From contig CM049321.1 in assembly GCA_026874595.1 (NCBI GenBank), forward strand, positions 24,456,479 to 24,520,478: DNA of 64,000 nt. Direction: 5' to 3'. The DNA comes from Sipunculus nudus (taxonomy: Eukaryota; Annelida; Sipuncula; Golfingiida; Sipunculidae). The notes beneath the pieces were generated by a model, which saw nothing but the letters and a program-made list of their open reading frames with translations, searched no databases and was not told the origin of the DNA. Below, in pieces: positions 4,573 through 62,904 of this stretch (the stretch's first letter is position 1; each line of letters begins with the position of its first letter). The translations under genes and the position numbers were made by a program.

Positions 4573-6673
<2,101 letters not shown>

Positions 6674-7800
6674 TCAGATCTCACTTGGTTTAGGCCTAGC
6701 TTCTATCGTACCAGGACCATTAGGATAATTCGAACGGTTGAATGCTCTGCATATACGCCGTATTAGAACAGTACGATAATATGGTACACGCCATAAATAT
6801 ACAAAAACATCCAGCAAGGAATTACACATAGCAACCAGAGTCATCATGGTACGGTAGCGCCCCCAATCGGCGTCATCAAGCAAGAATCCGTATGTTTGTA
6901 TTGAAAGTACAACAAAAAATGGCCCCCAGCATATGTAAAACAACCCGAGCACGATAAGACTGGTCTGGGCTAGTTTGATTTCTTGCCGCATTTTCTTGTG
7001 TCTGATCTTCAGTTCTTCTGATTGTTGTGGAAGATCGCGCATGGCCGCACTTCGGCTCCTCTGGTACTGCAAAAATACGATAATCATAAGTCCATAAACG
7101 ATAGCGATGAGAGCAGTACTGATGTAAAACGACGGTATCAAATCAGTACCAAAGTACTCCCACTTAAACATGAGAGTCAGCCAGCAAGTGAAAGTCCCGT
7201 CAGTATTACGGTCTGAAAGTAAAAGTACCGGCAGTACCACGCCGTGCAGAATTGATATCCCCACATACCAGCGGCGACCACGTGCGCTCGCTTTCTGGTT
7301 ATTAGTGAGTGATAATGGAGGGGTTCACAGACGGCAATAAAGCGGTCCACGGCGACCACACACAGCAGTAATATCGAAGCCACCATCGGGGTTATCTGCA
7401 TCAGATACCGTGCGATACACATGCTCAGCATCTGTTCGTATTTTGTGTCGGAGAGTATCAACGCTCCGTACGGCATGCTAATTCCAACAAAAAAGTCAGC
7501 GATGGACAGATGTACGAGGAAAAAGGTCGAATTTGTTCTGAGTTTCATCGAACTGGAGCACAAGTAAGTCAGGATAAAAAGGCAATTTCCGAACATAATT
7601 GAAATCCCGATAACAACAAGTGCAACGACAAACAATGTTCGGGCCTCAGGTGAAAGGTTATCCAAGTAGGTTGTGTTGGTTTTCCAAATAATGCCCAACA
7701 CCTTGTTTCCGCTGATGTGATATCCGGTGATATTCATTCTGCAGGTAAACCTTTCATTACCTTTTCCTTGCTTATTTACAGCTGCAGTTATTATGATCAT
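6674..7800 (-). pseudogene. A1: class A GPCR with one-base frameshift in TM4
   Basis: Read on the minus strand, this encodes the same seven-helix receptor as the intact A2 gene at 22,654-23,781. The N-terminal frame runs from 7,800 through TM4 and the C-terminal frame to the stop at 6,674. They are joined by loss of one base in a run: four C at 7,259-7,262, against five in A2 and A3, right after the TM4 Trp codon. Elsewhere all marks are kept: DRF at the end of TM3, CWGP in TM6, DVFVY in TM7, and the C-terminal tail ending PSEI. The lesion is in a homopolymer, so an assembly error is possible and the gene could be live. The start may be the second Met (at about 7,739), since all A copies align from there. 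Confidence 0.85.
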
Positions 7801-8765
7801 TATATAACTTTTGATTCTTAAAACTTAAGATACACCGATACCACTCTTTCATCCTTTACCGTGTTCTGGTCACGACAACCTTACTGTAGTCTATGTAGTG
7901 TTGACGTCACGGCGCTAGAGTCAAAATTCTCTGCCCGATGCTTGCAGGTTCCCTGTTCAGAGTATTATATGCATGTGCCGTACAAAACGTATACGTTGGA
8001 AGCGAGTACACAAAAAGAGTACACACTGCCCGCCTGCTTTATCTGCTTTACTAAATAAACTTTGCACAGGAATTACGAAAATAAGTTACAATCCCCAGCC
8101 GTGCGCTCCGATCATAAACCATTCGGAATGAATTGCTTTGCACCCAAGGGACATCCTTAATTTCGTATAATCTTTAGTTGACTTAATATTATCGCGCTGA
8201 TGGATTGGGATAGCTTTGGATTAGTTTTTGAGGGTGTGAGTTTAAGAGATTAATTATTTAGTTGTGAATCAGTTTATATAATAGGCAACATATATTAAAT
8301 AAATCTGTCAACGGAGTATGGAACCAAAGCTCGGATATACCGGTTAACGCAAAATACGTCACATATTACCATCTTACAGTTAGGAATAAAATATATGACC
8401 CTTTTTTAAATAGTGTATATGAACAACACATTTGTCGTTTGATCCACCCATGTCAATTGAGCTTTTATAATAATAAAAAAAATGCTGTATTGTTCATCCA
8501 AATATATAATCTGATGATTTCCATGAAAGAAAACTTGAAACTATAAATAAATATTAAAGACTTGATGCAAATAAATAAGAATAACAAAAGTGCATGGACA
8601 ATTTCCTTTTATGGAATTACAAAAAAATACTCACGGACATGACAGAGATTTTCAAGTCAATCTGTTAATAAAGGCGTTTTGGATATATGGTTAAAAGCTT
8701 GTGTATATTCAACAAGTATTATCTGGATATATTAAACAATTTAAACGATTACTTAATGTTAAATT
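7801..8765. other. Shared 5' flank between divergent A1 and B1 receptors
   Basis: This segment is conserved at 23,782-24,345, 33,387-34,370 and 49,236-49,910, and is therefore the common upstream DNA of the A genes. Close to the gene, A1 matches A3 and A2 matches A4. Promoter elements cannot be assigned with confidence. Confidence 0.5.
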
Positions 8766-9356: not shown

Positions 9357-9394
9357 TTATATATATATATATATATATATGTATATAGTATTAA

Positions 9395-9466
<72 letters not shown>

Positions 9467-9525
9467 TGGCGACCCATTAAGTACGGCGAAATTCCGGCCT
9501 CTCTCTCTCTCTCTTTCTCTCTCAT

Positions 9526-9602
<77 letters not shown>
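9357..9602. repeat. (TA)n / (CT)n / (TA)n microsatellite block
   Basis: Two TA tracts (about 9,357-9,465 and 9,561-9,602) flank a CT-rich tract. A short non-repetitive piece at 9,466-9,500 (GGCGACCCATTAAGTACGGC) recurs at 24,352-24,371, marking the homologous position in unit 2. Confidence 0.9.

Positions 9603-9606
<4 letters not shown>

Positions 9607-11253: not shown

Positions 11254-11257
<4 letters not shown>
9831..11257. other. B-unit non-coding DNA
   Basis: The part around 10,550-10,710 is similar to 37,885-38,065 in unit 3. The rest has no match inside the window that I can see. Overlapping opposite-strand open frames at 10,407-10,711 are each under 100 codons and are not conserved in unit 3. 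I see no gene. Confidence 0.5.

Positions 11258-11321
<64 letters not shown>
11258..11321. repeat. (CT)n then (TA)n microsatellite
   Basis: About 31 bp of CT is followed by about 32 bp of TA. The flank (11,390-11,480) matches 40,560-40,640 in unit 3, where the repeat is nearly gone. Confidence 0.9.
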
Positions 11322-13204: not shown

Positions 13205-13237
13205 TGAAAATAGAATATTGAAAACTATTTGACGAGT

Positions 13238-14365
13238 ATGGATAACCGAACGATCATGACAGTGATTACAACACACATTTATTCTACGTCCAACCTTTCT
13301 TTGACAGGTTTGTCATCAGCGAATTCCACCTACAGGGATAACCTGACCCCGGGGGCAAGAATGACTTTTGTTGGCGTTTTCACCCTGATTGGTGTTTTGA
13401 TCATGGGTGGAAACCTGCCATTCATTCTGACTTATTTGTGCTCAAAGTCACAAAGAATGAAAACGAACTCCACTTTTTTCCTCGTCCATCTGTCCATCGC
13501 TGACTTTTTTGTTGGATTAAACATGCCGTACGGAGCGTTGATAATCTCAGACACAAAATATGAAAAGATACTGAGCATGTGTATCGCCCGGTATCTGATG
13601 CAGATAACCCCGATGGTGGCTTCAATATTACTTCTGTGTGTAGTAGCCGTGGACCGCTTTATTGCCGTCTGTGAACCCCTCCATTATCACTCACTAATAA
13701 CCAGAAAGCGAGCGCACGTGGTCGCCGCTGGAATCTGGGGGATATCAATGCTATATGGCGTGGTACTGCCGGTACTTTTACTTTCAGACCGTAACCCTGA
13801 CGGGACTTTCACTTGCTGGCTGACTCTCATGTTTAAGTGGGAGTACTTTGGTACTGTTTTGATACCGTCGTTTTACATCGGTACCGTTCTAATCGCTATC
13901 GTCTATGGACTTATGGTAATCGTCTTTCTGCAGTACCAGAGAAGCCGAAGTGCGGCCTTACGAGATCTTCCACAACAATCAATAGAACTGAAGACCAGAC
14001 ACAAGAAAATGCGGCAGGAGATCAAACTGGCCCAGACCAGTCTTATCGTGCTTGGGTTGTTTTACATATGCTGGGGGCCATTTTTCGTGATTTTGTCAAT
14101 CCAGACTTACGGGTTTTTGCTCGCTGACGCCACCTGGGGGCGTTACCGTACCATGACCAGTGTGGTGGCCATATCTAACTCATTTTTGGACGCTGTAATT
14201 TATCTGTGGCGTTTACCACACTATCGCGCCATTTTGAGAAGACGCTTATGTGGCGGCACCAAGCGGCCTCAAGAAACATCTACAGGTTCTTTGGAACTAA
14301 GCGCGACATCCAGATCCAGCAGAGATGATATCGCTATAAGAATCATCGAAAGGAGGCAGACTTAG
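13238..14365 (+). CDS. B1: class A (rhodopsin-type) seven-helix receptor, orphan
   Basis: This intact single-exon frame of 375 codons starts at the first ATG (the frame is open a little upstream but has no earlier ATG). The extracellular N-terminus has several N-X-S/T sites (Asn3, 19, 29, 35). Approximate helices: TM1 43-67, TM2 78-102, TM3 112-137, TM4 159-183, TM5 200-231, TM6 265-292, TM7 301-326. Class A marks are Asn59 (1.50), Asp89 (2.50), Cys115 with Cys193 (likely disulphide), DRF at 139-141 in place of DRY, Trp167, Pro210 and CWGP at 278-281. TM7 reads DAVIY (318-322) and lacks the usual Pro. Position 3.32 is Gln, so an amine ligand is unlikely. The receptor should signal through G proteins at the plasma membrane; the ligand is unknown. 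It is divergent from A1, and part of TM3-TM4 looks converted from the A type. Confidence 0.93.
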   Translation: MDNRTIMTVITTHIYSTSNLSLTGLSSANSTYRDNLTPGARMTFVGVFTLIGVLIMGGNLPFILTYLCSKSQRMKTNSTFFLVHLSIADFFVGLNMPYGALIISDTKYEKILSMCIARYLMQITPMVASILLLCVVAVDRFIAVCEPLHYHSLITRKRAHVVAAGIWGISMLYGVVLPVLLLSDRNPDGTFTCWLTLMFKWEYFGTVLIPSFYIGTVLIAIVYGLMVIVFLQYQRSRSAALRDLPQQSIELKTRHKKMRQEIKLAQTSLIVLGLFYICWGPFFVILSIQTYGFLLADATWGRYRTMTSVVAISNSFLDAVIYLWRLPHYRAILRRRLCGGTKRPQETSTGSLELSATSRSSRDDIAIRIIERRQT

Positions 14366-19559: not shown

Positions 19560-19609
<50 letters not shown>

Positions 19610-19620
19610 TATATATATAT
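19560..19620. repeat. (TA)n microsatellite, left flank of Penelope-like insertion
   Basis: This is the left part of the TA tract that is continuous in unit 1 (5,403-5,460). The element at 19,621-21,285 splits it. Confidence 0.9.
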
Positions 19621-19646
19621 AACTCTGAAGAAAAACAACACTGTTA

Positions 19647-19694
19647 ATTCACAAAAGTCCGTTTCACGGGATGCGACCCGATCATCAGGTGAAT
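19647..19694 (-). ncRNA. Hammerhead-ribozyme-like motif, degraded
   Basis: On the minus strand, ATTCAC then CTGATGA, a CGGG/CCCG stem with a 6-base loop, GAA, a weak stem III, then GTGAAT closing stem I. Stem III is mismatched and the base of stem II is U-U, so activity is doubtful. It lies 3' of the Penelope-like coding remnant and in the same sense. Confidence 0.5.
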
Positions 19695-20343
19695 GTGGTC
19701 AGAATGAAGCTAACGGTGTGGTTTGAAAAGCCGAGACTTTACGGGATTACGAGATTATGCTTTCTGCGATTCGGGTCGGGGGGGGGGGGGCATGTGAAAG
19801 ACTGACACTGATCCTATTGTCCCCGGGTGCACAATAGGATTGATCGGGGTACACGTGCGATACTGGAACATAACAGGGCAGGACAAAGAGGTTATTTATT
19901 GTTGTAAATGTTATATATAATACAAATATATATACCAGGATGCTCAATTAGCATATTAAACTGATTTCTAATAGGGTCTTGGAAGCAGTGAACATATCAG
20001 TAGTATACATATGATAAAAATACACATATACTATGAAAATACACAATATACAAGGCAAATATACAATATAAAAGGCAAATATTCGATACCATACTCGTAC
20101 CAAATGCAATCCACTCGGTAAACTCACCATGATGTAGTGGTAACGCCATGTCCCTCATCACTACAAAGCAGTGAGAGAACAACTACATGAACAGGTAAGT
20201 CTGCCCAGCGGATCCTCGTTGGGGGGGGATATTAGTACGAATGCTAGGTTTTAAAATATTTCAGGGTGAATTTGTTTTGATGGCGGAATTTGGAGAGAAT
20301 TTCAGCCCTTGAGTTCAACAATGATCCAGGGGGGGGGGCGTTG

Positions 20344-21059
20344 CTATAAGTAGCTTTTCAGACAAGCAGAAATCACACCTCCTAGTCCACAGAAGTAAGG
20401 TGCTGCCTTGGCAGATATTTTCCAGGAGAGCTTGTAATTGATATTGTTGTCTTTTAGTGACCAAATGTGTTTAGACAATTCAGTATTTTTAGCGTGGGAT
20501 CTGTTCCGAAGGGACTGCTTGTGGTTATTGTATCTTCTCTTGAAATCACCTTCAGTACACCCTATGTAGTGTTTCACGTCATTGTCTGTTCTAACTGTTG
20601 CCTTATAGACAATGCATTTCAGCTGACATTGACCATTCATAGGACATTCGTCTTTTTTACGGCAGTTACATTGTTTTTGAGGTACATTCACAGCATTGTC
20701 AGTATTTAAAACCTTCATATTATGTTTGCTGATCTGGATAGACATGTTGGGTAGACAGCTATAGCTAATTTTCAAATTGTTCCTGTTGAATAACCTGTTG
20801 TACCTGTGATGTTGAGGGAAGTGTTTTTCAACTAGTTTCATGAATTGTCTGCCAATGTTGGTTTTACATGACGGCTGTAGGGTGGATTAAACCATATTAT
20901 TTTCCTTTTCCTGTTTCTTTTGCTTTTCATTGTGGGTTCAACATATTTTAAGCTTTCTGAGAACCCGCTTTTCGCTAAAGCTTTGTCATACATGGGTTTG
21001 GCTTTCATAAATAGCTCTTTATTGCAGGAGTTGTCAGATACACGTTTGCTGATCATCAA
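20344..21059 (-). pseudogene. Penelope-like protein C-terminal half (GIY-YIG endonuclease part)
   Basis: Read on the minus strand, the first piece (21,059-20,838) has the KIIWFNPPYSRHVK block. The second (20,841-20,344) begins MKLVEKHFPQHH and has SYSCLPN, then CNCRKKDECPMNGQC (a Cys-rich, zinc-knuckle-like block), IVYKATV, HYIGCTEGDFKRRYNNHKQS (YIG and catalytic Arg region) and ELSKHIW. One missing A in a run near 20,860 separates the two pieces, and another shift near 20,375 breaks the CxxC tail. The RT domain is absent. It is homologous to the proteins at 57,688-59,153 and 60,057-61,560. A dead copy. Confidence 0.85.
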
Positions 21060-21156
21060 AGGTATCTACCTAATGATAGCTGGGGGAGGGGGGGGGGGGG
21101 GGGGTGATTGGATGGTGCGTGGATATATACCACGCCGTTAGCTTCATTCTAACCAC

Positions 21157-21204
21157 ATTCACCTGATGATCGGGTCGCATCCCGTGAAACAGATTGTTGT
21201 GAAT
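21157..21204 (+). ncRNA. Hammerhead-ribozyme-like motif in inverted 5' flank
   Basis: ATTCAC (21,157-21,162), CTGATGA core (21,163-21,169), CGGG/CCCG stem II, GAA (21,186-21,188), an ACA/TGT stem III with a 3-base loop, T as the cleavage-site base, then GTGAAT (21,199-21,204) pairing with the first strand. All core bases are present; the only flaw is a U-U at the base of stem II. It is antisense to the neighbouring coding remnant. Confidence 0.65.
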
Positions 21205-21283
21205 TAACAGTGTTGTTTTTCAGAGTTATACCGCTCTGGCCTAGTCTGGAGGCCAAAGAGCACTTTACATCGGAGGGTAACAC

Positions 21284-22653
<1,370 letters not shown>

Positions 22654-23781
22654 TCAGATCTCACTTGGTTTAGGCCTAGCTTCTATTGTCCTAGGACCAT
22701 TACGATAATTCGAACAGTTGAATGCTCTGTATATACGCCGTATTAGAACAGCCCGATAATAAGGTACACGCCATAAATATACAAAAACATCCAGCAAGGA
22801 ATTACACATAGCAACCAGAGTCATCATGGTACGGTAGCGCCCCCAATCGGCGTCACCAAGCATAAATCCGTATGTTTGTATTGAGAGTACAACAAAGAAT
22901 GGCCCCCAGCATATGTAAAATAACCCGAACACGATAAGACTGGTCTTGGCCAGTTTGATTTCTTGCCGCATTTTCTTGTGTCTGGTCTTCAGTTCTTCTG
23001 ATTGTTGTGGAAGATCGCGCAAGGCCGCACTTCGGCTCCTCTGGTACTGCAAAAATACGATAATCATAAGTCCATAGACGATAGCGAAGAGAGCAGTACT
23101 GATGTAAAACGACGGTATCAAAACAGTACCAAAGTACTCCCACTTAAACATGAGAGTCAGCCAGCAAGTGAAAGTCCCGTCAGTATTACGGTCTGAAAGT
23201 AAAAGTACCGGCAGTACCACGCCGTATAGAATTGATATCCCCCAGATGCCAGCGGCGACCACGTGCGCTCGCTTTCTGGTTATTAGTGAGTGATAATGGA
23301 GGGGTTCACAGACGGCGATAAAGCGGTCCACGGCTACAACACACAGCAGTAATACAGAAGCCACCATCGGGGTTATCTGCATCAGATACCGAGCGATACA
23401 CATGCTCAGTATCTGTTCCAATTCTGTGTCGGAGATTATCAACGCTCCATACGGTATGCTTATTCCAACAAAAAAGTCAGCGATGGACAGATGGACGAGG
23501 AAAACTGTAGAGTTCGTTCTCAGTTTCCTCGATCTGGAGGACAAGTAGGTTAGGACAAAAAGGCAGTTTCCGGCCATAATTAAAATCCCAATAACAGTAA
23601 ATGCCACTACAAACAATGTTCGGGCCTGAGGTGAAAGGTTATCCAAGTAGGTTGTGTTGGTTTTCCCAACAATGCCCAACAGCTTGTTTCCGCTGACGTA
23701 ATTTCCGGCGGTATTCATATTATAGGCAAACCTTTCATTATATATTCCCTGCTGATTCACGACAGCAGTTATAAAGATCAT
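22654..23781 (-). CDS. A2: class A (rhodopsin-type) seven-helix receptor, orphan
   Basis: This is an intact 375-codon single-exon frame. The first ATG is at 23,781; a second Met (residue 22) is where all A copies begin to align and may be the true start. Helices: TM1 54-80, TM2 90-115, TM3 125-150, TM4 172-196, TM5 213-243, TM6 278-305, TM7 314-340. Marks: Asn72, Asp102, Cys128 with Cys206, DRF at 152-154, Trp180, Pro223 and CWGP at 291-294. TM7 has Asn327 and then DVFVY (331-335), lacking the Pro of NPxxY. Gln135 sits at 3.32, which argues against an amine ligand. There is a basic third loop and a basic helix-8-like segment after TM7. The C-terminus PSEI fits a class I PDZ-binding end (S-x-I). 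Role: a plasma-membrane G-protein-coupled receptor with unknown ligand; chemoreception is a guess from the tandem-array setting. Confidence 0.93.
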   Translation of the reverse strand: MIFITAVVNQQGIYNERFAYNMNTAGNYVSGNKLLGIVGKTNTTYLDNLSPQARTLFVVAFTVIGILIMAGNCLFVLTYLSSRSRKLRTNSTVFLVHLSIADFFVGISIPYGALIISDTELEQILSMCIARYLMQITPMVASVLLLCVVAVDRFIAVCEPLHYHSLITRKRAHVVAAGIWGISILYGVVLPVLLLSDRNTDGTFTCWLTLMFKWEYFGTVLIPSFYISTALFAIVYGLMIIVFLQYQRSRSAALRDLPQQSEELKTRHKKMRQEIKLAKTSLIVFGLFYICWGPFFVVLSIQTYGFMLGDADWGRYRTMMTLVAMCNSLLDVFVYLWRVPYYRAVLIRRIYRAFNCSNYRNGPRTIEARPKPSEI

Positions 23782-24345
23782 TGTAGAAGTTTTGATATAT
23801 CACAGTAAAGTGTTTAAAATAATGAAATGCTGATACCATACTGTTATTGATATGAATCTTCCGTTCACAACAACCTAACTGTAGGCCATGTTCACATCGT
23901 GGCGCTAGAGTCAAAATTTCCTGTCCAATGCTTGCAGGTTCCCTGTCCAGTGTATTATATGCATGTGTCGTACAAAACGTATACGTTGGAAGCGAGTACA
24001 CAAAAAGAGTACACACCGCCCGCCTGCTTTATCTCCTTTACTAAATGCACAGGAATTACGAAAATAAGTTACAATATCAAGCCGGCGCTCCGACCATTAA
24101 CCACTCGGAAGTAAATTGCTATGCACCCAAGGGACATCCTTAATTTCGTATAATCATTAGTTGACTTAATATTATCGCGCTGATGGATTGGGACAGCTTT
24201 GGGTTAGTTTTTAGGGTGTGAGTTTAAGAGATTCATTATTTAGTTGTGAATCAATTTATATAACAGGCCACATATATAAAATAAAGCTGTCAACGGAGTA
24301 TGGAACCAAAGTTCGGATATACCAATTAAAGCAAATTACGTCACA
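23782..24345. other. 5' flank of A2 receptor
   Basis: This is conserved with 7,801-8,330 and closest to 49,236-49,860 in unit 4. No gene is seen. Confidence 0.5.
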
Positions 24346-30017: not shown

Positions 30018-30081
<64 letters not shown>

Positions 30082-30575: not shown

Positions 30576-31730
30576 TGCCCCCGCCGCAAAGTGGCCGGGG
30601 CATATATTTTAACCCATGTCCGTCCTTCCGTCCTTCCGTCATTCCGAAATAAAATAGTTGTACGGACTTTTTTTCGCAATGCCTGCAGATATTGGCCTGA
30701 TTTTTGGTGTATGAGCAGATAATGACCTGTTACAGACCGAGTTCGCGTTTCGTACCAGTTAACCTACTTTTGTACATTTTACGGCTCCTTAACTAAGAAA
30801 ATTTCATGAAAAATATAAATTTTCATGACAAATACACATGTACGGACTTTTTTCGTAATGCCTGCAAATATTGGCCTGATTTTTTGTGCGTGGGCAGATG
30901 TTGATCAGTTACAGTTCGAGTTCGCGTTTCGTCCATGTTGACATGTTTTGACCGTTTTACGGCTCCTGAACATAGAAAATTTCATGAAAAACAAAATTTT
31001 CATGACAAATACACATGTACTGACTTTTTTTGCAATGCCTGCAGATATTGGCCTGATTTTTGGTGTGTTGGCAGATAATGATTAGTTACAGATTGAGTTC
31101 ATGTTTTGTCCCAGTTGACCAACTTTTGACCGTTTGATGGTGCTCTAACATAGAAAATTTCATAAAAAAGTGCACATGTACGGACTCTTTTTCGCAATGC
31201 CTGCAGATACGGGCCTGATTTTTGGTGTGTAGGCAGATATCGACCAGTTACAGATCGAGTTCGCGTTTCGTCACAGTTGACCTACTTTTGACCATTTGAC
31301 TGCTCCTGAACATAGAAAGTTTCATGAAAAATAGAAATTTTCATAACAAATGCATGTGTTTCCTCAATGCCTGCAGATACCACCCTGATTTTTTATGTGT
31401 GGGCAGATAATGACAGTTACAGATCGAGTTCGCGTTTCATCCCGGTTGACCTACTTTTGATTGTTTTACGGCTCCTAAACATAGACAATTTCACGAAAGA
31501 CAGAAATTTTTATGGAAAATGCACATGTATGGACTTTTTTTCACAGTGCCTGCAGATACTGGCCTGATTTTTGGTGTGTTGCTTGGTAATGACCCGTAAC
31601 AGATCGAGTTTGCATTTTGCCCTTGTTGACCTACTTTTGACCATATGACACCTCCTGAAAATTTCAAAATTTAACAAATGTTTCTAATTTGCCCCAGGCG
31701 GGGGCATTCGTGTCGTTCCGACACATCTAG
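30576..31730. mobile_element. TIR element made of ~175-bp tandem repeats, non-coding
   Basis: Ends carry inverted ATGCCCCCGCC (30,575-30,585) and GGCGGGGGCAT (31,697-31,707). The direct repeat TTTTA(T) flanks at 30,571 and 31,731, and units 1 and 2 have the uninterrupted 'TTTTATATATAAATTG' site. The inside is six tandem copies of ~160-180 bp, marked by TACGGACTTTTTT-like starts at about 30,661, 30,841, 31,019, 31,179, 31,352 and 31,528. Each copy contains 'GCCTGCAGATA' and 'GAGTTCGCGTTTCGT'-like blocks. There is no ORF. I associate the GCCCCCGCC-ended repeat with mollusc and other invertebrate genomes; no superfamily is assigned. Confidence 0.75.
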
Positions 31731-32372: not shown

Positions 32373-33386
32373 TTATATATCACTTGGTTTGGGCCTAGCT
32401 TCTATTGTCCCAGGACCATTATGATACTTCGATCGGTTGAATGCTCTGCATATACGCCGTATTAGAACAGCCCGATAATAAGGTACACGCCATAAATATA
32501 CAAAAACATCCAGCAAGGAATTACACATAGCTACCAGAGTCATCATGGTACGGTAGCGTCCCCAATCTGCGTCATCAAGCAAAAATCCGTATGTTTGTAT
32601 TGAAAGTACAACAAAAAATGGCCCCCAGCATATGTAAAACAACCCTAGCACGATAAGACTTGTCTGGGCCAGTTTGATTTCTTGCCGCATTTTCTTGTGT
32701 TTGGTCTTCAGTTCTTCTGATTGTTGTTGAAGATCGCGCAAGGCCACACTTCGGCTCCTCTGGAACTGCAAAAATGCGATAATCATAAGTCCATAGACGA
32801 TGGCGATGAGAGCGGTACTGATGTAAAACGACGGTATCAAAACAGTACCAAAGTACTCCCACTTAAACATGAGAGTCAGCCAGCAAGTGAAAGTCCCGTC
32901 GGTGTCACGGTCTGAAAGTAAAAGTACCGGCAGTACTACGCCGTATAGAATTGATATCCCCCACATGCCAGCGGCGACCACGTGCGCTCGCTTTCTGGTT
33001 ATTAGTGAGTGATAATGGAGGGGTTCACAGACGGCGATAAAGCGGTCCACGGCGACCACACACAGCAGTAATATCGAAGCCACCATCGGGGTTATCTGCA
33101 TCAGATACCGTGCGATACACATGCTCAGTATCTGTTCGTATTTTGTGTCTGAGATTATCAACGCTCCGTACGGCATGCTTATTCCAACAAAAAAGTCAGC
33201 GATTGACAGATGGACGAGGAAAAAGGTCGAATTTGTTCTCAGTTTCATCGAATTGGAGCACAAGTAGGTTAGAATAAAAAGGCAATTTCCGAACATAATT
33301 GAAATCCCGATAACAGCAAGTGCAACGACAAACAATGTTCGGGCCTCAGGTGAAAGGTTATCCAAGTAGGTTGTGTTGGTTTCCAA
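32373..33386 (-). pseudogene. A3: class A GPCR with one-base loss near the N-terminus
   Basis: The entire seven-helix core is open for about 337 codons to the stop at 32,373 and is closest to A1. It keeps DRF, CWGP and DVFVY and ends PSDI, again fitting a class I PDZ end. The open frame has no ATG upstream of TM1: its first codon here is TTG. Three T at 33,380-33,382, where A1 and A2 have four, shift the frame between the normal start (ATG near 33,435) and the NTTY glycosylation site. As read it would lack its natural start and is probably a pseudogene. A homopolymer assembly error would restore an intact gene. Confidence 0.82.
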
Positions 33387-34429
33387 ATAATGCCCAACAC
33401 CTTGTTTCCGCTGACGTAATATCCGGTGATATTCATTCTGCAGGTAAACCTTTAATTACGTATCACTTGCTTATTTACAGCTGCAGTTATTATGATCATA
33501 ATAGAAGTTTTGATTTTTTTTTTTAACTTAAGATACACTGATACCACTCTTTCATCTTTTACCGTGTTCTGGTCACGCCACCTCACTGTAGTCTATGTAG
33601 TGTTGACCTCACGGCGGGAGAGTCAAAATTCTCTGCCCGATGCTTGCAGGTTCCCTGTTCAGTGTATTATATGCATGTGTCGTACAAAACGTATACGTTA
33701 GAAGCGAGTTCACCAAAAGAGTACACACTGCTTTATCTGCTTTACTAAATAAACTTTGCACAGGAATTACGAAAATAAGTTACAATCCCCAGCCATGCCT
33801 TCCGATCATAAACCATTTGATATGTGAATTGCTATGTACCCAAGGGACATCCTTAATTTCGTATAATCATTAGTTGACTTAATATTATCACGCTGATGGA
33901 TTGGGATAGCTTTGGATAAGTTTATGAGGGTGTTAGTTTAAGAGATTAATTATTAAGTTGTGAATCAGTTTATATAACAGGCCACATATATAAAATAAAT
34001 CGGTCAATGGAGTATGGAACAAATGTTCGGATATAGCGGTTAAAGCAAAATACGTCACATTTTACCATCTTACAGTTATAATAAAAATATATGACCCTTT
34101 TTAAATGGTGTATATGAACAACACATTTGTAGTTTGATCCACCCATATCAAATGAGACGTGAGACGAGAGAAAAATATGTTGTATTATTAATCTAAGTAT
34201 TTAATCTAATAGTTTCCTAATGGAAACTGGAAATATATATTAAAGACTTGATGCAAATAAATAAGAATAACAGGAGTGGACATTTCCTTGTTTACTATAT
34301 ATCCTCGTGTATATTCAACAAATATTATCTGGATACATTTAACAAATTAAACGATTACATAATGTTAAACAATGGCGGAAAGCAAGATAAGGTGGGCGTC
34401 GGGTGGGGTTGGCGTATCTAGGCTAGGTG
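33387..34429. other. 5' flank between divergent A3 and B3 receptors
   Basis: This is conserved with 7,801-8,840. Close to the gene it matches unit 1 better than unit 2 or 4. The displaced N-terminal codons of A3 lie at 33,387-33,437. No other gene is seen. Confidence 0.5.
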
Positions 34430-42112: not shown

Positions 42113-42118
42113 TGAAAA

Positions 42119-43222
42119 ATGAATATTGAAAAATATTTGGCGAATATGGATAATGGGACGATCATGACAGTGATTACCACAGAAATCTATTCCACGTCCA
42201 ACTTATATTTGACCGTTTTAACATCAACGAATTCCACCTACAGGGACATTCTGACCCCGGAGACAAGAAAGACCTACGTTGGGGTTTTCATCCTGGTTGG
42301 TGTGTTGATCATGGGTGGAAACCTGCCATTCATTCTGACGTACCTCTGTTCAAAGTCTCAAAGAATGAAAACAAACTCTACATTTTTTCTCGTCCATCTG
42401 TCTATCGCTGACTTTTTTGTTGGATTAAACTTGCCCTACGAGGCGTTGATAATCTCAGACACAAAGTACGAACAGATACTGAGCATGTGTATCGCACGGT
42501 ATCTGATGCAGATAACTCCGATGGTGGCTTCTGTATTATTGCTGTGTGTGGTCGCCGTGGACCGCTTTACTGCTGTCTGTGAACCCCTCCATTATCGCTC
42601 CCTAATAACAAGAAAGCGAGCACACTTGGTCGTCGCTGGCGTGTGGGGGATATCAATTCTATACGGCGTGGTACTGCCGGTACTTTTACTTTCAGACCGT
42701 AACACTGACGGGACTTTCACTTGCTGGCTGACCCTCATGTTTAAGTGGGAGTACTTTGGTACTGTTTTGATACCGTCGTTTTACATCGGTACCGTTCTCA
42801 TCGCTATCGTCTACGGACTTATGATAATCGTCTTTTTGCAGTACCAGAGGAGTCGAAGTGCGGCCTTACGAGATCTTCCACAGCAGTCAGAAGAACTGAA
42901 GAGCAAACACAAGAAAATGCGACAGGAAATCAAACTGGCCCAAACAAGTCTTATGGTGCTTGCATTGTTTTACATATGCTGGGGGCCATTTTTCGTGATT
43001 TTGTCCATTCAGACTTACGGGTTTTTACTTGCTGACGCCACCTGGGGGCGCTACCGTACCATGACCAGTGTAGTGGCCATGTCTAACTCATTTTTGGACG
43101 CTGTTATTTATCTGTGGCGTTTACCACATTATCGCGCCATTTTGAGACGTTTATGTGGCGCCACCGAGCGGTCTCAAGAATTATCTACAGGTTCTATGGA
43201 ACTGAGCGCCACGTCCAGATGA
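42119..43222 (+). CDS. B3: class A (rhodopsin-type) seven-helix receptor, orphan
   Basis: This is an intact 367-codon frame from the ATG at 42,119. The Met at codon 10 (42,146) corresponds to the B1 start and may be the real one. N-glycosylation sites lie before TM1. The sequence has GGN in TM1, LSIAD in TM2, CIARYLMQ in TM3 with Gln at 3.32, DRF (with Thr after it where others have Ile), CWGP in TM6 and DAVIY in TM7. The C-terminus is shorter than in B1 because an early TGA follows ATSR. It is the same divergent-pair partner of A3 as B1 is of A1. Predicted role: plasma-membrane G-protein-coupled receptor with unknown ligand. It lacks the A-like tract seen in B1, so it better represents the original B sequence. 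Confidence 0.93.
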   Translation: MNIEKYLANMDNGTIMTVITTEIYSTSNLYLTVLTSTNSTYRDILTPETRKTYVGVFILVGVLIMGGNLPFILTYLCSKSQRMKTNSTFFLVHLSIADFFVGLNLPYEALIISDTKYEQILSMCIARYLMQITPMVASVLLLCVVAVDRFTAVCEPLHYRSLITRKRAHLVVAGVWGISILYGVVLPVLLLSDRNTDGTFTCWLTLMFKWEYFGTVLIPSFYIGTVLIAIVYGLMIIVFLQYQRSRSAALRDLPQQSEELKSKHKKMRQEIKLAQTSLMVLALFYICWGPFFVILSIQTYGFLLADATWGRYRTMTSVVAMSNSFLDAVIYLWRLPHYRAILRRLCGATERSQELSTGSMELSATSR

Positions 43223-48289: not shown

Positions 48290-49235
48290 TATCAACTCTC
48301 GCTTGGTTTATACCTTGCTTCGGTTCCCATTGGACCATTAAAGACATTCGATCAGTCGAATGCTCTTTACCATAAAGGCCTGCTAATAAGGTACACGCAA
48401 TAAATATACGAAAACATCCGGCAATGAATTACATATCGCTACCTTAATTATCCTTGTACGGTAGCTTAGCCAAGCGGCATCACCAAAAAAAAGTATGTTT
48501 GTATTGAGAGTACAACAAAAATGGCCACTAGCATACGTAGAATAACCCTAACCCGATAAGACTGGTCTGGACCAGATTGATCTCCTGCCGCATTTTCCTG
48601 TGTATGGTCTTATGTCTTCTGCTTGTTATGGAAGATACCGTAAGGCCGCACTTCGGCTCCTCTGGTTCTACAGGAAGGCGATTATCATAAATCCGTAAAT
48701 AATAGCGATGAGAGCGGAACCGATGTAAAAAGACGGTATCATAACAGTACCAAAAGTACTCCCACTTAAACATGAGCGTCAGGGTCAAGTAAAAGTACCG
48801 GCAGTCCCACGCCATATTGAACTGATACCCCTCCCCCCCCCCCCCCCCCCCATTCGAGCAGCGACTGCGTGAGCGCGCTTTCTGGTTATAAGTGAGTGAT
48901 AATGGAGGGGTTCGCACGCACATGCTCCGTGTCTGGTCATATTTTATGTCGGAGATTATCATCGCTCCATATGGTGCGTTTAATCCAACAAAAAAATTCA
49001 GCGATTGACAAATGAACGAGGAAATATGTAGTTTGTTCTCAGTTTTCTTTTACTGGAGTAGTTTAGGATAAAAAGGCAATTTCCAACCATGATTAACATC
49101 CCCATAACAGCAAATGCCACGCCAACGAAATGCGGGCCTCAGACGAAAGGTTATCCAAGTAGGTTGCGTTGTTTTTTTTCCAACAATGCCCAACAGCTTG
49201 TTTCCGCTAACGTAATTTCCGGTGGTATTCATATT
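48290..49235 (-). pseudogene. A4: degraded class A GPCR pseudogene
   Basis: The N-terminus (MNTTGNYVSGNKLLGIVGK from 49,232) is like A2. The frame is then lost, and the TM2-TM3 region is shortened so that the DRF block is gone. A long poly-C run (48,833-48,850) disrupts TM4, and only pieces of TM5-TM7 can be followed in shifting frames. It is not functional. Confidence 0.85.
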
Positions 49236-56879: not shown

Positions 56880-57065
56880 CCATGTTGCTTCACCATCTGG
56901 AATATGGCACTTGTCATTTTCCGCGAGCTGGATGTCGTAACAGCCATCTGCACCTGCACGACACCAATTTTGCCCTCCAGTATCCCAACGAACAAGTACA
57001 GTGTTTTTCCGCTCAGAATTACGTCTCAAAACGGTGCCAACGCTTGGTATTTCCCAAGGCTTTAA
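56880..57065 (-). pseudogene. Fragment resembling the second half of a MIB/HERC2 domain
   Basis: On the minus strand the frame reads VGTVLRRNSERKNTVLVRWD, then TGGQNWCRAGADGCYDIQLA. This resembles the GTV...VxVxWDxGxxxxYRxGxxGxYDL pattern of MIB/HERC2 domains. The frame stops (TGA) at 56,877-56,879; a possible donor ATG|GTGATC lies just before, so it could be an exon or a gene relic. The first half of the domain is not next to it. Confidence 0.5.
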
Positions 57066-57169
57066 ACATGAAATAAATTCAGGTGTATGAATTCATTTAT
57101 TTAGATATAGAAACACAATGTAATGAATTATAATACAATATGAAAAATAATGCAATATTTTATAAAAAT

Positions 57170-57170
<1 letters not shown>

Positions 57171-57211
<41 letters not shown>
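57171..57211. repeat. (CA)n then (TA)n tract at the left edge of Penelope-like cluster
   Basis: About 23 bp CA and 18 bp TA directly precede the inverted Penelope-like fragment. Confidence 0.9.
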
Positions 57212-57214
57212 TAC

Positions 57215-57677
57215 AGAAAGGGTTTGATTGCCATTCCAGGATCAAAGTGCTCGATACATAAAGTAGAGCTGCTATAAGTTTATAAAAATGCATCAATGAA
57301 TAAATGTCACTACCCGCAGGTTTCGTGCGAACTGCGTGGCACTCATCAGGTGACTGAATGGGGTTGGTTTGTGTTTGTTCATGTATGGGTGCGTGTGCGA
57401 GATTATTTACGGTTGGCTGGTTTTTGTTGTATGATGCCTGCAAGTGTTAAGGAATTCACTTCGTTTATTAAGGAGTGGCGTTCTTTTGTAAGACATAATT
57501 TGTAGCTTTTCTTGTTCGCATAGGTTACACCTGTTATTCATTGTTGTTGTAGTTGGCTTTGCTATAATAGACCATGTGATATTGTGAGGTGCCTTGGCGT
57601 TTCAGTTTCCAAATATACTTTGATAGTTCTGTTTCTGTTTCATAATTCTCCTATTTAAACGACTTCTTGTGGTTCGC
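57215..57677 (-). mobile_element. Inverted 3' fragment of Penelope-like element
   Basis: This is the reverse complement of 61,530-61,935 and 59,150-59,640. It covers the last codons of the GIY-YIG region, the 3' tail and the hammerhead motif. It ends abruptly at the junction with the plus-strand copy at about 57,678, in the middle of the HKKSF codons. The tail-to-body arrangement mirrors that at 21,127-21,230. Confidence 0.85.
57306..57354 (-). ncRNA. Hammerhead ribozyme motif, intact (minus strand)
   Basis: On the minus strand: GTCAC, CTGATGA, GTGC + 10-base loop + GCAC (stem II), GAA, ACC-TGCG-GGT (3-bp stem III), A at the cleavage site, GTGAC closing stem I. All core positions match the type I hammerhead, with the very short stem III known for those of Penelope-like elements. 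Confidence 0.8.
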
Positions 57678-57687
57678 ACGACGGGCA

Positions 57688-59153
57688 AAACAAGGAATTT
57701 TTACAAACTAAACCACGAAGAATACAACAAATTACTCACAGAAAACATCACCGCCAAATACAAACCAGCCAAAGATAACACCCAGCAAAAAATCAACAAG
57801 GATATGCACAAGATCGCCGCTCAGTATGATTTGGATGACCGGATCAACCTGATGAAACCATAAAAAGCGTCCATCACGTTAAAAGACCACAAAACGAACT
57901 TTTTAAACAAACCAACATGCAGGTTAATCAATCTGGCAAAGACAGAACTGGGCAAAGTCAGCAAATCGATCATGGATAGAATAAATACAAACATCAGGAA
58001 TTCCACCAACCTCAACCAATGGCGCAATACTACAGAAGCAATCGATTGGTTTTCTTCAATTAAAGACAAAAAAAGATCAAAGTTTCTACTTTTCGACATA
58101 GCCGAATTTTACCCTTCCATATCTGAGGACCTTCTAATAAAAAGTGTGACCTGGTAAAAAAAATACTGTTCCAAATCCGAACGCGAACTGAACACAATCC
58201 TACACTGCAGAAAATCGCTATTGTTCCACAAAAACAAGCCTTGGGAAAAAAGAAACAACCCGTCATTTGACGTCACTATGGGCAGTTTTGACAGGGCTGA
58301 AATCTGCGAGAACGTACGACTGTTCATACTTCACACCCTCAGTAAAATAATCCCCTCAGAAAACATAGGACTGTACCGGGATGACGGATTAGCCGTACTC
58401 AAAGGAATGACGGGACGAGCAGCAGACAAACTCAGAACAAAAATAACTTCAGAACTCCAGCTTCTTGGCATCAAGATCACAGCCGAATCCAACCGAAACA
58501 CAGTTAATTTCCTTGACGTGACTTTCGACCTGAAGAACAACTCATATAAGCCGTACAGAAAACCAAATGACAACCCTTTATATGTGCATAAATTGTCCAA
58601 CCACCCACCTCAAATCATCAAGCAAATTCCAGAAGCGATCGGCAAACGTATATCACAGCTCTCCCACGACGAAGAATCATTCCATTCCACCGCCCACATC
58701 TATAACGACGCGCTAGAAAACTCAGGACACAACGAAAGAATTAGCTACAGCAAACCCCAGCAAAACAATGGGAAGAATAAACGGAGAAGAAACATCATAT
58801 GGTTCAACCCCCCTTTCTGCAAGAGCGTAAAAACAAACGTCGGAAAAATGTTCCTGCGCCTGATTGACAAACATTTCCCACCCGGCAGCCCTCTTCACAA
58901 ACTTTTCAATAGAAACACTATAAAAGTCAGCTACGGCTGTCTCCCAAATCTGGGCAGCATCATTAGAAACCACAACCAAAAATTTCTACAACAAACATCG
59001 AACCCCCAACCCAAGCGAGCTTGCAACTGCAGGAATAAAGGAGAATGCCCACTGAACGGCGACTGCCTAACAACAAGTGTTGTTGACAAAGCTGATATAA
59101 CTACGAATAAAGGGGACCGTCTCATACATAGGAAACACAAGAAATACTTTTAA
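57688..59153 (+). pseudogene. Penelope-like RT/GIY-YIG protein, copy 1
   Basis: One frame, interrupted by TAA at about 57,861 and again at about 58,155, carries the reverse-transcriptase motifs. These are a FDIAEFYPSI block (motif A, ~58,100), DVTMGSFDRAEICENV (motif B-like, ~58,270) and LYRDDG (catalytic motif C, ~58,371-58,388). After that come the IIWFNPPFCKSVKTNVG block, SYGCLPN and CNCRNKGECPLNGDC. A shift near 59,115 destroys the YIG part of the endonuclease. It is an RNA-copying retroelement protein in family terms, but this copy cannot make it. Confidence 0.87.
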
Positions 59154-59487
59154 AAGCCGCTATGCGAATCACAAGAAGTCGTTTAAATAGGAGGAGTATG
59201 AAACAGAAACAGAACTATCAAAGTATATTTGGAAACTGAAACGCCAAGCACCTCACACAGTATCACATGATCTATTATAGCTAAGCCAACTAAAACAACA
59301 ATGAATAACAGGTGTAACCTATGCGAACAAGAAAAGCTACACATTATGACTTACAAAAGAACGCCACTCCTTAATAAACGAAGTGAATTCCTTAACACTT
59401 GCAGGCATCATACAACAAAAACCAGCCAACCGTAAATAATCTCGCACACGCACCCATACATGAACAAACACAAACCAACCCTATTCA

Positions 59488-59540
59488 GTCACCTGATGAG
59501 TGCCACGCAGTGCGCGCGTCCGAAACCTGCGGGTAGTGAC
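59488..59540 (+). ncRNA. Hammerhead ribozyme motif, damaged stem II
   Basis: The core CTGATGA (59,493-59,499), GAA, ACC-TGCG-GGT stem III and the GTCAC/GTGAC stem I are intact. The 3' strand of stem II is changed and 4 bases longer than in copy 2, so stem II no longer pairs well. Confidence 0.65.
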
Positions 59541-59695
59541 ATTTATGCATTGATGCATTTTTATAAACTTATAGCAGCTCTACTTGATGTATCGAGCACT
59601 TTGATCCTGAAATGGCAATCAAACCCTTTATGTAATAAACAGCTCCTATTATTGTCGAGCACTTTGCCAATACTGGTCAACTGCATGAATGCACA

Positions 59696-61557
59696 ATGGA
59701 ACAAATTCGTTTCAACACATCAATGAAGAATATCCCTATTACAAGCCGCACATCATACCGGAGACATTTATTGGGGAAAGTCGAAAGCGTCGTTAAACGC
59801 ATGCGTTGGAAAGTCATATTTTCCAAAAAAGACGAGAACCTGGACAGCGATAGGGAACCAACAGAAAGCCGCACTTGCAAATACGGATTGAAGTCTAAAA
59901 GAATCCCACCAAAACTTGATGAAACCAAAGCATTTGAAGATGATATATTTAAAACCGTTGAAAACTAAGAATTCCGGAAAGTAACTGACACTTTTCAAGA
60001 AAGACTGACCAAAGTGAAAATTTATAACTTCATCAAAGGAACTCATCGTCCCGGCGGACAAAACAAGGAATTTTTACAAACTAAACCACGAAGAATACAA
60101 CAAATTACTCACAGAAAACATCACCGCCAAATACAAACCAGCCAAAGATAACACCCAGCAAAAAAATCAACAAGGATATGCACAAGATCGCCGCTCAGTA
60201 CGATTTGGATGACCGGATCAACCCGATGAAACCCCAAAACGCGTTCATCACGTTAAAAGACCACAAAACGAACTTTTAAAACAAACCAACATGTATGTTA
60301 ATCAATCTGGCAAAGACAGAACTGGGCAAAGTCAGCAAATCGATCATCGATAGAATAAATACAAACATCAGGAATTCCACCAACCTCAACCAATGGCGCA
60401 ATAATACAGAAGCAATCGATTGGTTTTCTTCAATTAAAGACAAAAAAAAAAGATCGAAGTTTCTACTTTTCGACATAGCCGAATTTTACCCTTCCATATC
60501 TGAGGACCTTCTAATAAAAAGTCTGACCTGGTAAAAAAAATACTGTTCCAAATCCGAACGCGAACTGAACACAATCCTACACTGCAGAAAATCGCTATTG
60601 TTCCACAAAAACAAGCCTTGGGAAAAAAGAAACAACCCGTCATTTGACGTCACTATGGGCAGTTTTGACAGGGCTGAAATCTGCGAGAACGTACGACTGT
60701 TCATACTTCACACCCTCAGTAAAATAATCCCCTCAGAAAACATAGGACTGTACCGGGATGACGGATTAGCCGTACTCAAAGGAATGACGGGACGAGCAGC
60801 AGACAAACTCAGAACAAAAATAACTTCAGAACTCCAGCTTCTTGGCATCAAGATCACAGCCGAATCCAACCTAAACACAGTTATTTTCCTTGACGTGACT
60901 TTCGACCTGAAGAACAACTCATATAAGCCGTACAGAAAACCAAATGACAACCCTTTATATGTACATAAATTGTCCAACCACCCACCTCAAATCATCAAGC
61001 AATTTCCAGAAGCGATCGGCAAACGTATATCACAGCTCTCCCACGACGAAGAATCATTCCATTCCACCGCCCACATCTATAACGACGCGCTAGAAAACTC
61101 AGGACACAACGAAAGAATTAGCTACAGCAAACCCCAGCAAAACAATGGGAAGAATAAACGGAGAAGAAACATCATATGGTTCAACCCCCCTTTCTGCAAG
61201 AGCGTAAAAACAAACGTCGGAAAAATGTTCCTGCGCCTGATTGACAAACATTTCCCACCCGGCAGCCCTCTTCAAAAACTCTTCAATAGAAACACTATAA
61301 AAGTCAGCTACAGCTGTCTCCCAAATCTTGGCAGCATCATTAGAAACCACAACCAAAAAATTCTACAAGAAACATCGAACCCCGAAGCTTGCAACTGCAG
61401 TAATAAAGGAGAATGCCCACTGAACGGCGACTGCCTAACAACAAGTGTTGTTTACAAAGCTGATATAACTACGAATAACGGGACCGTCTCATACATAGGA
61501 AACACAGTAAATACTTTTAAAAGCCGCTATGCGAACCACAAGAAGTCGTTTAAATAG
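59696..61557 (+). pseudogene. Penelope-like RT/GIY-YIG protein, copy 2
   Basis: The N-terminal part (59,696-59,968; RRHLLGKVESVVKRMRWK) stops at TAA. A linker frame starts near 60,057 and is lost at an extra A in a run (about 60,162-60,168). The RT part runs from 60,295 with FDIAEFYPSI, then TAA at 60,532. The long frame 60,598-61,557 (319 codons) has YRDD at residues 52-55, a Cys-rich CNCSNKGECPLNGDC at 265-279, VVY at 284-286 and YIG at 299-301 with Arg310 as likely catalytic Arg. A TAG after HKKSFK is followed in frame by ~80 codons with ELSKYIRKL and a CNLCEQEK motif, so a single nonsense codon truncates the endonuclease tail. Not functional. Confidence 0.87.
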
Positions 61558-61855
61558 GAGAAGTATGAAACAGAAACAGAACTATCAAAGTATATTAGGA
61601 AACTGAAACGCCAAGGCACCTCACACAGTATCACATGGTCTATTATAGCTAAGCCAACTACAACAACAATGAATAACAGGTGTAACCTATGCGAACAAGA
61701 AAAGCTACAAATTATGTCTTACAAAAGAACGCCACTCCTTAATAAACGAAGTGAATTCCTTAACACTTGCAGGCATCATGCAACAAAAACCAGCCAACCG
61801 TAAATAATCTCGCACACGCACCCATACATGAACAAACACAAACCAACCCCATTCA

Positions 61856-61904
61856 GTCACCTGATGAGTGCCACGCAGTGCGCACGAAACCTGCGGGTAG
61901 TGAC
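61856..61904 (+). ncRNA. Hammerhead ribozyme motif, intact
   Basis: GTCAC (61,856-61,860), CTGATGA (61,861-61,867), stem II GTGC/GCAC with a 10-base loop, GAA (61,886-61,888), stem III ACC/GGT with loop TGCG, A at 61,899 as the cleavage-site base, GTGAC (61,900-61,904). It matches the hammerhead core throughout. It lies 2,364 bp downstream of the copy 1 cleavage site. Confidence 0.82.
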
Positions 61905-61931
61905 ATTTATGCATTGATACATTTTTATAAA

Positions 61932-61933
<2 letters not shown>

Positions 61934-61969
<36 letters not shown>
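61934..61969. repeat. (TA)n tract at the right edge of Penelope-like cluster
   Basis: About 36 bp of TA right at the 3' end of copy 2. Confidence 0.9.
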
Positions 61970-61974
<5 letters not shown>

Positions 61975-62904
61975 TACCTCTAAAGCTGTCAGGCAGAGAA
62001 GGCACTCCGAGGTCATAACCGCGTTTGACCTCTATTGGTCACTAAAAGAATCCTGGGAATGAATGTTATTCTTTGAACCATCGGGATGATTTATGGAAAA
62101 ATAGAGTCGGGATGATTGTTTCTTTCAGATGTGTAAATGAATCAATTTGAAGACGGATCACAAAAAAGGACTGGACACTCAACCAAAAAAAGTAAGCTTT
62201 CAAACAGCTAGCGTTCCATTAAACAGAACCCTTATCAAAGACCGCGAGGACCTTATATAAGTTTTTTTTTCTTTATAATTTCTTTGGAGGAGCTACTGTT
62301 CCTCTTTTTGCAAGCACCGTACAATTTGATCCTTTCGCAGGCTCCCTGGCGGGTTGTGCGAGTCTCGTGCCTTCCTGTCAGGTGCGAAAACTTGCATTGG
62401 CTGAATGAGCCCCGACTTTTCTCAGATGATAACCTGTGCCAGCCAGCAACTGGTTTTAACACATTAGATATGGTCCAATTGCAAGAGGGTTTAATTTATT
62501 CAAATTATTGCAAAAAATTTTTGTTGTTCCTATAAGGAAAATTGTTCATATAGCAAATTCAATGGTTCTTTCAGATTGAATGATCTCCACATATCAACAT
62601 ACGAATGTATGAGAAATGTGTCAGTACTACTGACAAATTGTGTCCGCTTGACAAGTGTTTAGAAGCTCATAATAAAACATACTGTACCTTTCAAACATAA
62701 ACATGTTTATTGCACATTTATACAGGTACCACAGTGAATTATAAGATCGCTCCACTAAAATAAAGGCAAAATCTATATAATTTATCCGGTTTACCTGCTT
62801 CCGTTCTAATTTGGCTCTCCAAGTTCGGCAGACGTATCGGCGGTGGGCTCTTCTTGGCAAAGTTTGTTTTATTTTGCGGGATTATGCCCTATTTAGCTGA
62901 ATAA
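61970..62904. other. No recognised gene
   Basis: Unique sequence in this window. Open frames at 62,253-62,535 overlap on both strands and match no family I know. Confidence 0.4.

Follow-up and report, generated by a model that had tools for sequence, protein, structure and literature searches.

Here we describe a decayed Penelope-like element (PLE) at positions 57209-61937 of a 64,000-nt stretch of the Sipunculus nudus genome (GCA_026874595.1, contig CM049321.1, positions 24,456,479 to 24,520,478 of the forward strand; hereafter the window, whose numbering is used throughout). Its combination of tandem and inverted copies is textbook for PLEs (PMC3846280, PMC8969392). From the ends of this cluster and of its relatives we consider it likely that a PLE of the endonuclease type inserted by target-primed reverse transcription on both strands of pre-existing TA microsatellites, using RNA that mostly did not end at a 3′ ribozyme. 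With dozens of insertions whose ends can be resolved in one genome, PLE insertion and the role of the hammerhead become a counting problem. Most ends lie at two template points, in TA arrays and beyond the ribozyme cut, which argues against ribozyme-ended RNA as the usual template, and the same pattern argues for priming on both target strands.

Self-comparison with blastn resolved the cluster into an inverted 3′ arm, a 5′-truncated copy (copy 1) and a complete unit (copy 2), with TA arrays adjoining both outer ends (Table 1). The inverted arm matches unit positions 1957-2364 at 97.8% identity and then unit positions 1-64 at 95.3%. It thus passes the head-to-tail joint by 64 nt, referred to as the tail, and the right end of copy 2 halts at the joint itself (the no-tail site). 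The three arms differ by 8-13 substitutions over 405-407 positions. The cluster therefore has the tandem and partial-tandem copies that form pseudo-long terminal repeats (pLTRs), the 5′ truncation, the inverted pLTR and the optional tail at a fixed 3′ position that characterise PLEs. The original prediction, made from the letters alone, had proposed a PLE with hammerheads, composed of a reversed 3′ fragment, a truncated copy and a longer copy, with tandem ribozymes spaced 2,364 nt apart. The order and spacing are borne out, the hammerheads are of the minimal type I, and the reversed piece is indeed an inverted 3′ arm, although it is more than a 3′ fragment. The prediction also held that the layout would be informative for insertion; it proves so beyond what was seen then, with ends at fixed points in TA arrays.

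Table 1. Coordinates of the elements, their hammerheads and the associated TA arrays.
Feature	Position	Strand	Remarks
(TA)n flank, putative target microsatellite, left side	57194..57211		leftwards becomes (CA)n at 57170-57194
Inverted 3′ arm	57209..57678	-	unit 1957-2364 plus 64-nt tail; outer end at tail site; blastn, end comparison
Hammerhead type I, complete core	57306..57354	-	stems I 5 bp, II 4 bp, III 3 bp; predicted cut after 57311
Copy 1, 5′-truncated	57679..59573	+	unit 479-2364; 96.8% identity to copy 2
Hammerhead of copy 1	59488..59540	+	core letters retained; 4-nt insertion disrupts stem II
Copy 2, complete 2364-nt unit	59574..61937	+	broken reading frame, Penelope type
Tail template, directly past the head-to-tail joint	59574..59637	+
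Reverse-transcriptase part of the open reading frame (YRDDGLAV etc.)	60280..61554	+	stop 60532-60534; assigned by motif
Remainder of the GIY-YIG endonuclease part	61558..61800	+	after stop 61555-61557; assigned by motif
Hammerhead of copy 2, complete	61856..61904	+	predicted cut after 61899
(TA)n flank, putative target microsatellite, right side	61934..61974		element ends at AAACTTATA, the no-tail site
TA array left of second element	19561..19621		AAA interruption at offset 44
Second, different Penelope-like element, same layout	19622..21288	-	inverted arm 21129-21288 at 5′ side
Hammerhead of the second element's inverted arm	21158..21203	+	predicted cut after 21198; motif scan
TA array right of second element	21289..21396		AAA interruption at offset 44; duplicated target
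Paralogous empty TA site for second element	5403..5461
Second paralogous empty TA site	30018..30057
Double-ended insertions	window, L024/L025 cluster, L029, L030, L036, L038, L040, L042, L044, L046

The host genome (1.43 Gb) was searched with the last 458 nt of the unit as pLTR query. Forty of the 321 first-look candidates were scored, and 49 matches were grouped by eye into 35 places (labelled with an L), 28 of which were read widely, the window included, and seven only around the pLTR end (321 bases each). Parsing returned 50 end rows. Removal of eight chance matches of the regular expression (L024 +1368, L025 +1432, L031 +4660, L032 +3844, L033 +92, L034 +7441, L034 -1330 and L048 +2415) and of one tandem joint (L028 +4649) left 41 ends, 21 no-tail and 20 tail, with 34 in TA by the strict test. 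Four no-tail ends were added, their TA status judged by eye (L071-L073 in TA, L074 in an interrupted run), giving 45 ends at the two fixed points and 37 in TA; with L045 (+), L069, L070 and L075 the total is 49 hand-sorted arm ends. Hence the no-tail point accounts for 25 ends and the tail point for 20, and four lie elsewhere. Of the fixed-point ends, 37/45 (33/41 with segmental duplicates counted once) pass within 6 nt into alternating TA that extends for at least 10 nt; among the 56260 positions of the window that lie outside the elements, the background is 0.46%. From the hammerhead cut of the window element it is 38 nt to the no-tail point and about 102 nt to the tail point, both of which lie beyond it.

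A second PLE in the window repeats this arrangement, and its protein is 48% identical to that of the first over 123 aligned columns. One side of it has a no-tail end and the opposite side a tail end. Both arms contain a hammerhead, that of the left arm being degenerate in stem III as judged by eye. The distance from cut to end, read from the sequence, is about 33-35 nt, and the ends of both families in the window are situated beyond the ribozyme cut. The flanks belong to a duplicated segment that occurs twice more in the window as a TA array followed by (GA)n, without the element. Both flanking arrays carry the AAA interruption at the same offset, and therefore a TA array of about 61 bp was duplicated on insertion. 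This second family is abundant in the genome, with 620 first-look candidates and at least 40 matches listed. Forty of the candidates were scored and 20 stretches read; these gave 18 ends (16 no-tail, 2 tail), 14 of them in (TA)n, and two further reads that pass through the joint.

Ten insertions of the first family, among the 28 widely read places, have RNA-3′ ends at fixed points on both sides (Table 1). In nine of these one end is a tail and the other a no-tail end; the tenth, L030, has two tails. Single-ended insertions at those places comprise nine no-tail and seven tail ends, and therefore about half of all pairs would be expected to be one of each. The excess gives a one-sided binomial probability of 0.011 against 0.5, or 0.006 with the window's second element added; L045, whose second end is broken, was left out of both the double-ended and the single-ended counts. 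Moreover, arms of the same insertion group together in a tree for 4/6 insertions with at least two arms (the window, L028, L029 and L036; support 0.75-0.95). Three places, L021, L034 and L035, contain short internal inverted pieces instead of opposed arms. Such pieces resemble twin-primed insertions of long interspersed nuclear elements.

We scanned the window for hammerheads that had the core, a stem I of 5 bp, no fewer than 4/5 positions of stem II and a stem III of 2 bp or more. Three sites were recovered, at 57349-57311 (-), 61861-61899 (+) and 21163-21198 (+), where 0.02 per 64 kb are expected by chance (averaged over 300 first-order Markov simulations). The scan did not return the motif of copy 1 at 59493-59535, because four additional bases ruin its stem II. 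Consequently the type I pattern of CUGAUGA, GAAA and NUH core with stems I-III is present in the inverted arm and in copy 2 and incomplete in copy 1. Of the three intact cores originally proposed, the core letters stand at all three coordinates and only these two motifs are complete. The original prediction had named folding and a covariance scan as checks. At gathering score Rfam gave no match in the whole window, and searches up to E 5 on 57000-62000 gave no hammerhead. With 81-nt pieces, Hammerhead_HH9 aligned to copy 2 and the inverted copy with three helices at 15.8 bits (E 0.086), below its gathering score of 52, a threshold that does not define the class; it gave no alignment to copy 1 (86-nt piece), and no Rfam hammerhead matched an 81-nt piece of the second element's right arm. 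PLE hammerheads are described as minimal variants without helix III (PMC6155905). Unconstrained folding favoured a different hairpin for all three motifs (-14.3 to -16.0 kcal/mol), their hammerhead folds had energies of -10.2, -10.2 and -3.4 kcal/mol, and z-scores were unremarkable; by itself, thermodynamic folding is uninformative here. In a dimer, the letters of the potential helix III, ACCUGCGGGU, can form 10 nt of pairing with a second copy of themselves (-16.3 kcal/mol), and tandem minimal PLE hammerheads are reportedly able to cleave via dimeric motifs (PMC7761336). Across the family, 29/43 hand-sorted hammerheads keep core and stems, segmental duplicates included. The 43 derive from 48 parsed rows, less nine unrelated fuzzy matches, plus four degenerate motifs (L042+, L043-, L045-, L048+), and leave out the seven stretches read only around the pLTR end. 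Judging from these intact motifs, the predicted hammerheads may cleave some family transcripts.

The reading frames of copy 1 and copy 2 are interrupted by stops and shifts. Stops after TW and after KKSFK are common to the translations of both copies, and therefore the source element had probably been defective before these copies arose; in L028, which belongs to the family but lies at another place in the genome, the KKSFK position is free of a stop. PLEs characteristically have a single open reading frame for a telomerase-like reverse transcriptase and a GIY-YIG endonuclease. Visible in the broken frames are YRDDGLAV, which we take to be the Penelope reverse-transcriptase motif, and YIG..K..RY.NHK..TELSK.IW, presumably that of the GIY-YIG endonuclease. 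Profile matches remained below threshold: GIY-YIG at E 0.035 in the second element, and, in a family member, retron reverse transcriptase at E 0.036 and Drt3a at E 0.073. Pfam had no match for the endonuclease part at 61558-61800, and the remaining Pfam and NCBIfam searches returned nothing or unrelated sub-threshold families. Searches of PDB sequences gave no match, and a search of viral contigs found no relatives.

The PLE of Anolis carolinensis (Poseidon, PAc) offers a scheme to which the genomic copies can be fitted. In vitro it prefers AT-rich DNA, which it cuts and extends on both strands, and it starts internally at two adjacent sites bounding the tail, with or without ribozyme activity, so that cleavage is unnecessary for insertion (PMC11167929). 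In our reading of two-strand priming in TA arrays, a transcript longer than one unit (pLTR-open reading frame-pLTR or longer) would be produced, and the element's endonuclease would open both strands of a pre-existing TA microsatellite, as the TA flanks, the empty paralogous sites and the long target duplication suggest. Reverse transcription would then begin inside the RNA past the hammerhead, in most cases from either of two fixed points deduced from the observed ends. One would lie after ..ACTTA(TA), able to pair with TA target ends, and the other, within A/C-rich sequence (..AAACCCTTTCTGT), about 64 nt beyond it. Each broken strand would be extended, usually one per point, which would leave an inverted arm on one side and the body on the other; the double-ended structure itself is observed at ten places. 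The hammerhead would seldom set the inserted ends, with a possible role in protein-assisted or dimeric cleavage at another stage. To the Anolis scheme the genomic copies would add the TA microsatellite as target, an upstream start ending in TTATA that matches this target in both families, and the use of both points per insertion. More tentatively, and with slightly less than even confidence, we suggest an animal Penelope lineage, of at least two families in one genome, that is specialised for TA microsatellites. A paired RNA-protein complex would use the two starts, one for each broken strand, with pairing of UAUA to the target assisting the upstream start, and the inverted arm plus body would be the direct product of two-strand priming, with the hammerhead of minor importance for the ends.

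Several observations weigh against insertion by this route. No profile scored above threshold for a reverse transcriptase or an endonuclease in Pfam or NCBIfam, so that profile support for both is weak and their assignment leans on motifs and layout. Eight of the 45 fixed-point ends do not pass the strict TA test, although six of them adjoin TA-rich runs with interruptions; in the second family 4/18 likewise fail (L050, L051, L057, L068). The no-tail group counts L032, about 3 nt short, and the degenerate L034, both lacking an adjoining TA array, and the 5′ side has no TA array in at least L021, L028, L032, L034, L035 and L037. Four ends lie away from both points. L069 stops at unit position 2328 in non-TA sequence, within 2 nt of the ribozyme cut and the only such end; L070 stops at 2279, ahead of the hammerhead; the + arm of L045 stops at 42; and L075 continues past the joint as far as a TA array at 139. 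The one-of-each pattern was spotted only after the data had been seen, the Anolis element reportedly showed no difference in start site between the two strands in vitro (PMC11167929), and the arms of L030 and L040 are unpaired in the tree. Finally, the query under-samples copies without the last 458 nt of the unit.

Insertion could instead have proceeded from hammerhead-processed RNA, with long transcripts cut, 2364-nt monomers ligated, and the monomers or circles reverse transcribed, rolling round to give tandem copies. Such a route would agree with the tandem hammerheads at 2364-nt spacing, the 10-nt self-pairing of helix III, the complete hammerheads in 29/43 cases and the end of L069. Retrozymes travel via such circles (PMC7229834), and an RNA circle as template would account for ends past the cut. 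However, 48/49 arm ends lie elsewhere than the cut, so that linear monomers do not usually serve as template; the ribozyme of copy 1 is broken; and a joint followed by a long body is found only in the window and L028 among the widely read places. Moreover, ribozyme mutants of the Anolis element still inserted in vitro (PMC11167929). We therefore regard this route as unlikely, and ribozyme-cut RNA may occasionally have served as template without being the rule. The release of a 2,364-nt monomer by two tandem ribozymes, as originally predicted, finds no support: it is unlikely in the window because of the broken stem II of copy 1, and in the family 1/49 ends lies near the cut.

The layout could also have arisen by local DNA duplication or repeated nested insertion, and not in one event. 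Segmental duplication of insertions does occur (the L024/L025 cluster; L026/L027), and the window copies are 2-3% apart. However, opposed arms ending at fixed points recur at ten places, the window included, nine with both points, and the window joint matches that of L028, which makes such an origin improbable. A further possibility is that the TA arrays were made by the element itself, through UAUA slippage or telomerase-like repeat addition, and are not its target. The no-tail end TTATA could be a slippage template, and Penelope reverse transcriptases and telomerase share a common ancestor (PMC3846280). Against this, two paralogous sites in the window have the TA array without the element, the arrays continue into (CA)n or (GA)n, the duplicated array includes the AAA interruption, and TA arrays also adjoin 5′-truncated ends that lack a TA template (e.g. 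L022, L023, L026, L031, L033). An element-made array is consequently very improbable indeed.

Many features of these insertions have been described for PLEs, including direct and inverted pLTRs, a tail on one inverted pLTR, partial tandems, target site duplications and 5′ truncation (PMC3846280, PMC8969392), and minimal hammerheads in the pseudo-LTRs (PMC6155905, PMC7229834, PMC7761336). The Penelope elements of Adineta vaga (Pen2a_Av and others) are alike in their direct pLTRs, 5′-side inverted pLTR, partial tandems, 5′ truncation and optional tail at the 3′ end of one inverted pLTR. However, their target site duplications are 8-10 bp and their tail 31 bp, whereas the window families have TA microsatellites as targets, a tail of about 60 nt and, in one instance, a duplicated TA array of about 61 bp, and TA arrays as targets are not mentioned for them in the part of that paper available (PMC3846280). 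PAc shares with the window element the tandem organisation, pLTR hammerhead, AC-rich start region, two internal starts bounding the tail, AT-rich target and cutting and extension of both strands; in contrast, the no-tail point of the window element ends in TTATA, matching the TA target, and one-of-each use of the starts per insertion is unreported for PAc in the available text (PMC11167929). The hammerheads are like the minimal ones of PLEs and Terminons in being of type I, with a very short helix III, in tandem and located in the pseudo-LTR (PMC7761336, PMC7229834, PMC6155905), with no essential difference beyond the broken middle ribozyme of the window. Metazoan retrozymes also have type I hammerheads in tandem repeats, but are short non-coding repeats that move as small circular RNAs (PMC7229834), whereas the window element has coding remnants. 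Its 2364-nt unit with these remnants, together with the 1/49 ends near the cut, does not fit the retrozyme pattern of a short non-coding repeat bounded by ribozymes. The MuTAnT elements of Medicago have a TA-microsatellite target in common with it, but are Mutator-like DNA transposons with unrelated machinery (PMC4486113). We found no report of microsatellite or TA targeting by Penelope elements in titles and the beginnings of abstracts, nor in the available parts of PMC3846280, PMC8969392 and PMC12910113; the PLE-diversity survey of Craig 2021 was not covered, and priority is uncertain.

Elsewhere in the genome, whole insertions have been segmentally duplicated with their flanks, in three copies at one place for L024/L025 (C9:1.51-1.53 Mb) and as a pair on two different contigs for L026 (C6) and L027 (C4). 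At L070 the shortened pLTR gives way, after position 118 in the pLTR sense, to tandem repeats of a short unit resembling CCCATAATGTAATAA. Second-family hammerhead-like sequences occur beside first-family insertions in the right flanks of L030 and L039, in L024 at 9280 and in L025 at 6954, and judging from these neighbours it looks as if TA arrays collect elements of both families. Within the window, further TA arrays adjoin CT arrays at 9358-9603 and 11257-11319, where neither element matches in self-comparisons.

The remainder of the window contains open frames and fragments resembling G-protein-coupled receptors in both orientations (6674-7824, 13214-14365, 22654-23799, 32373-33455, 42116-43222 and 48528-49049). 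Large duplicated segments surround this cluster, and the two frames that were scanned match Pfam 7tm_1 with E of about 1e-37. Lastly, a tandem array with a degenerate unit of about 177 bp, in 5.6 copies, lies at 30659-31642.

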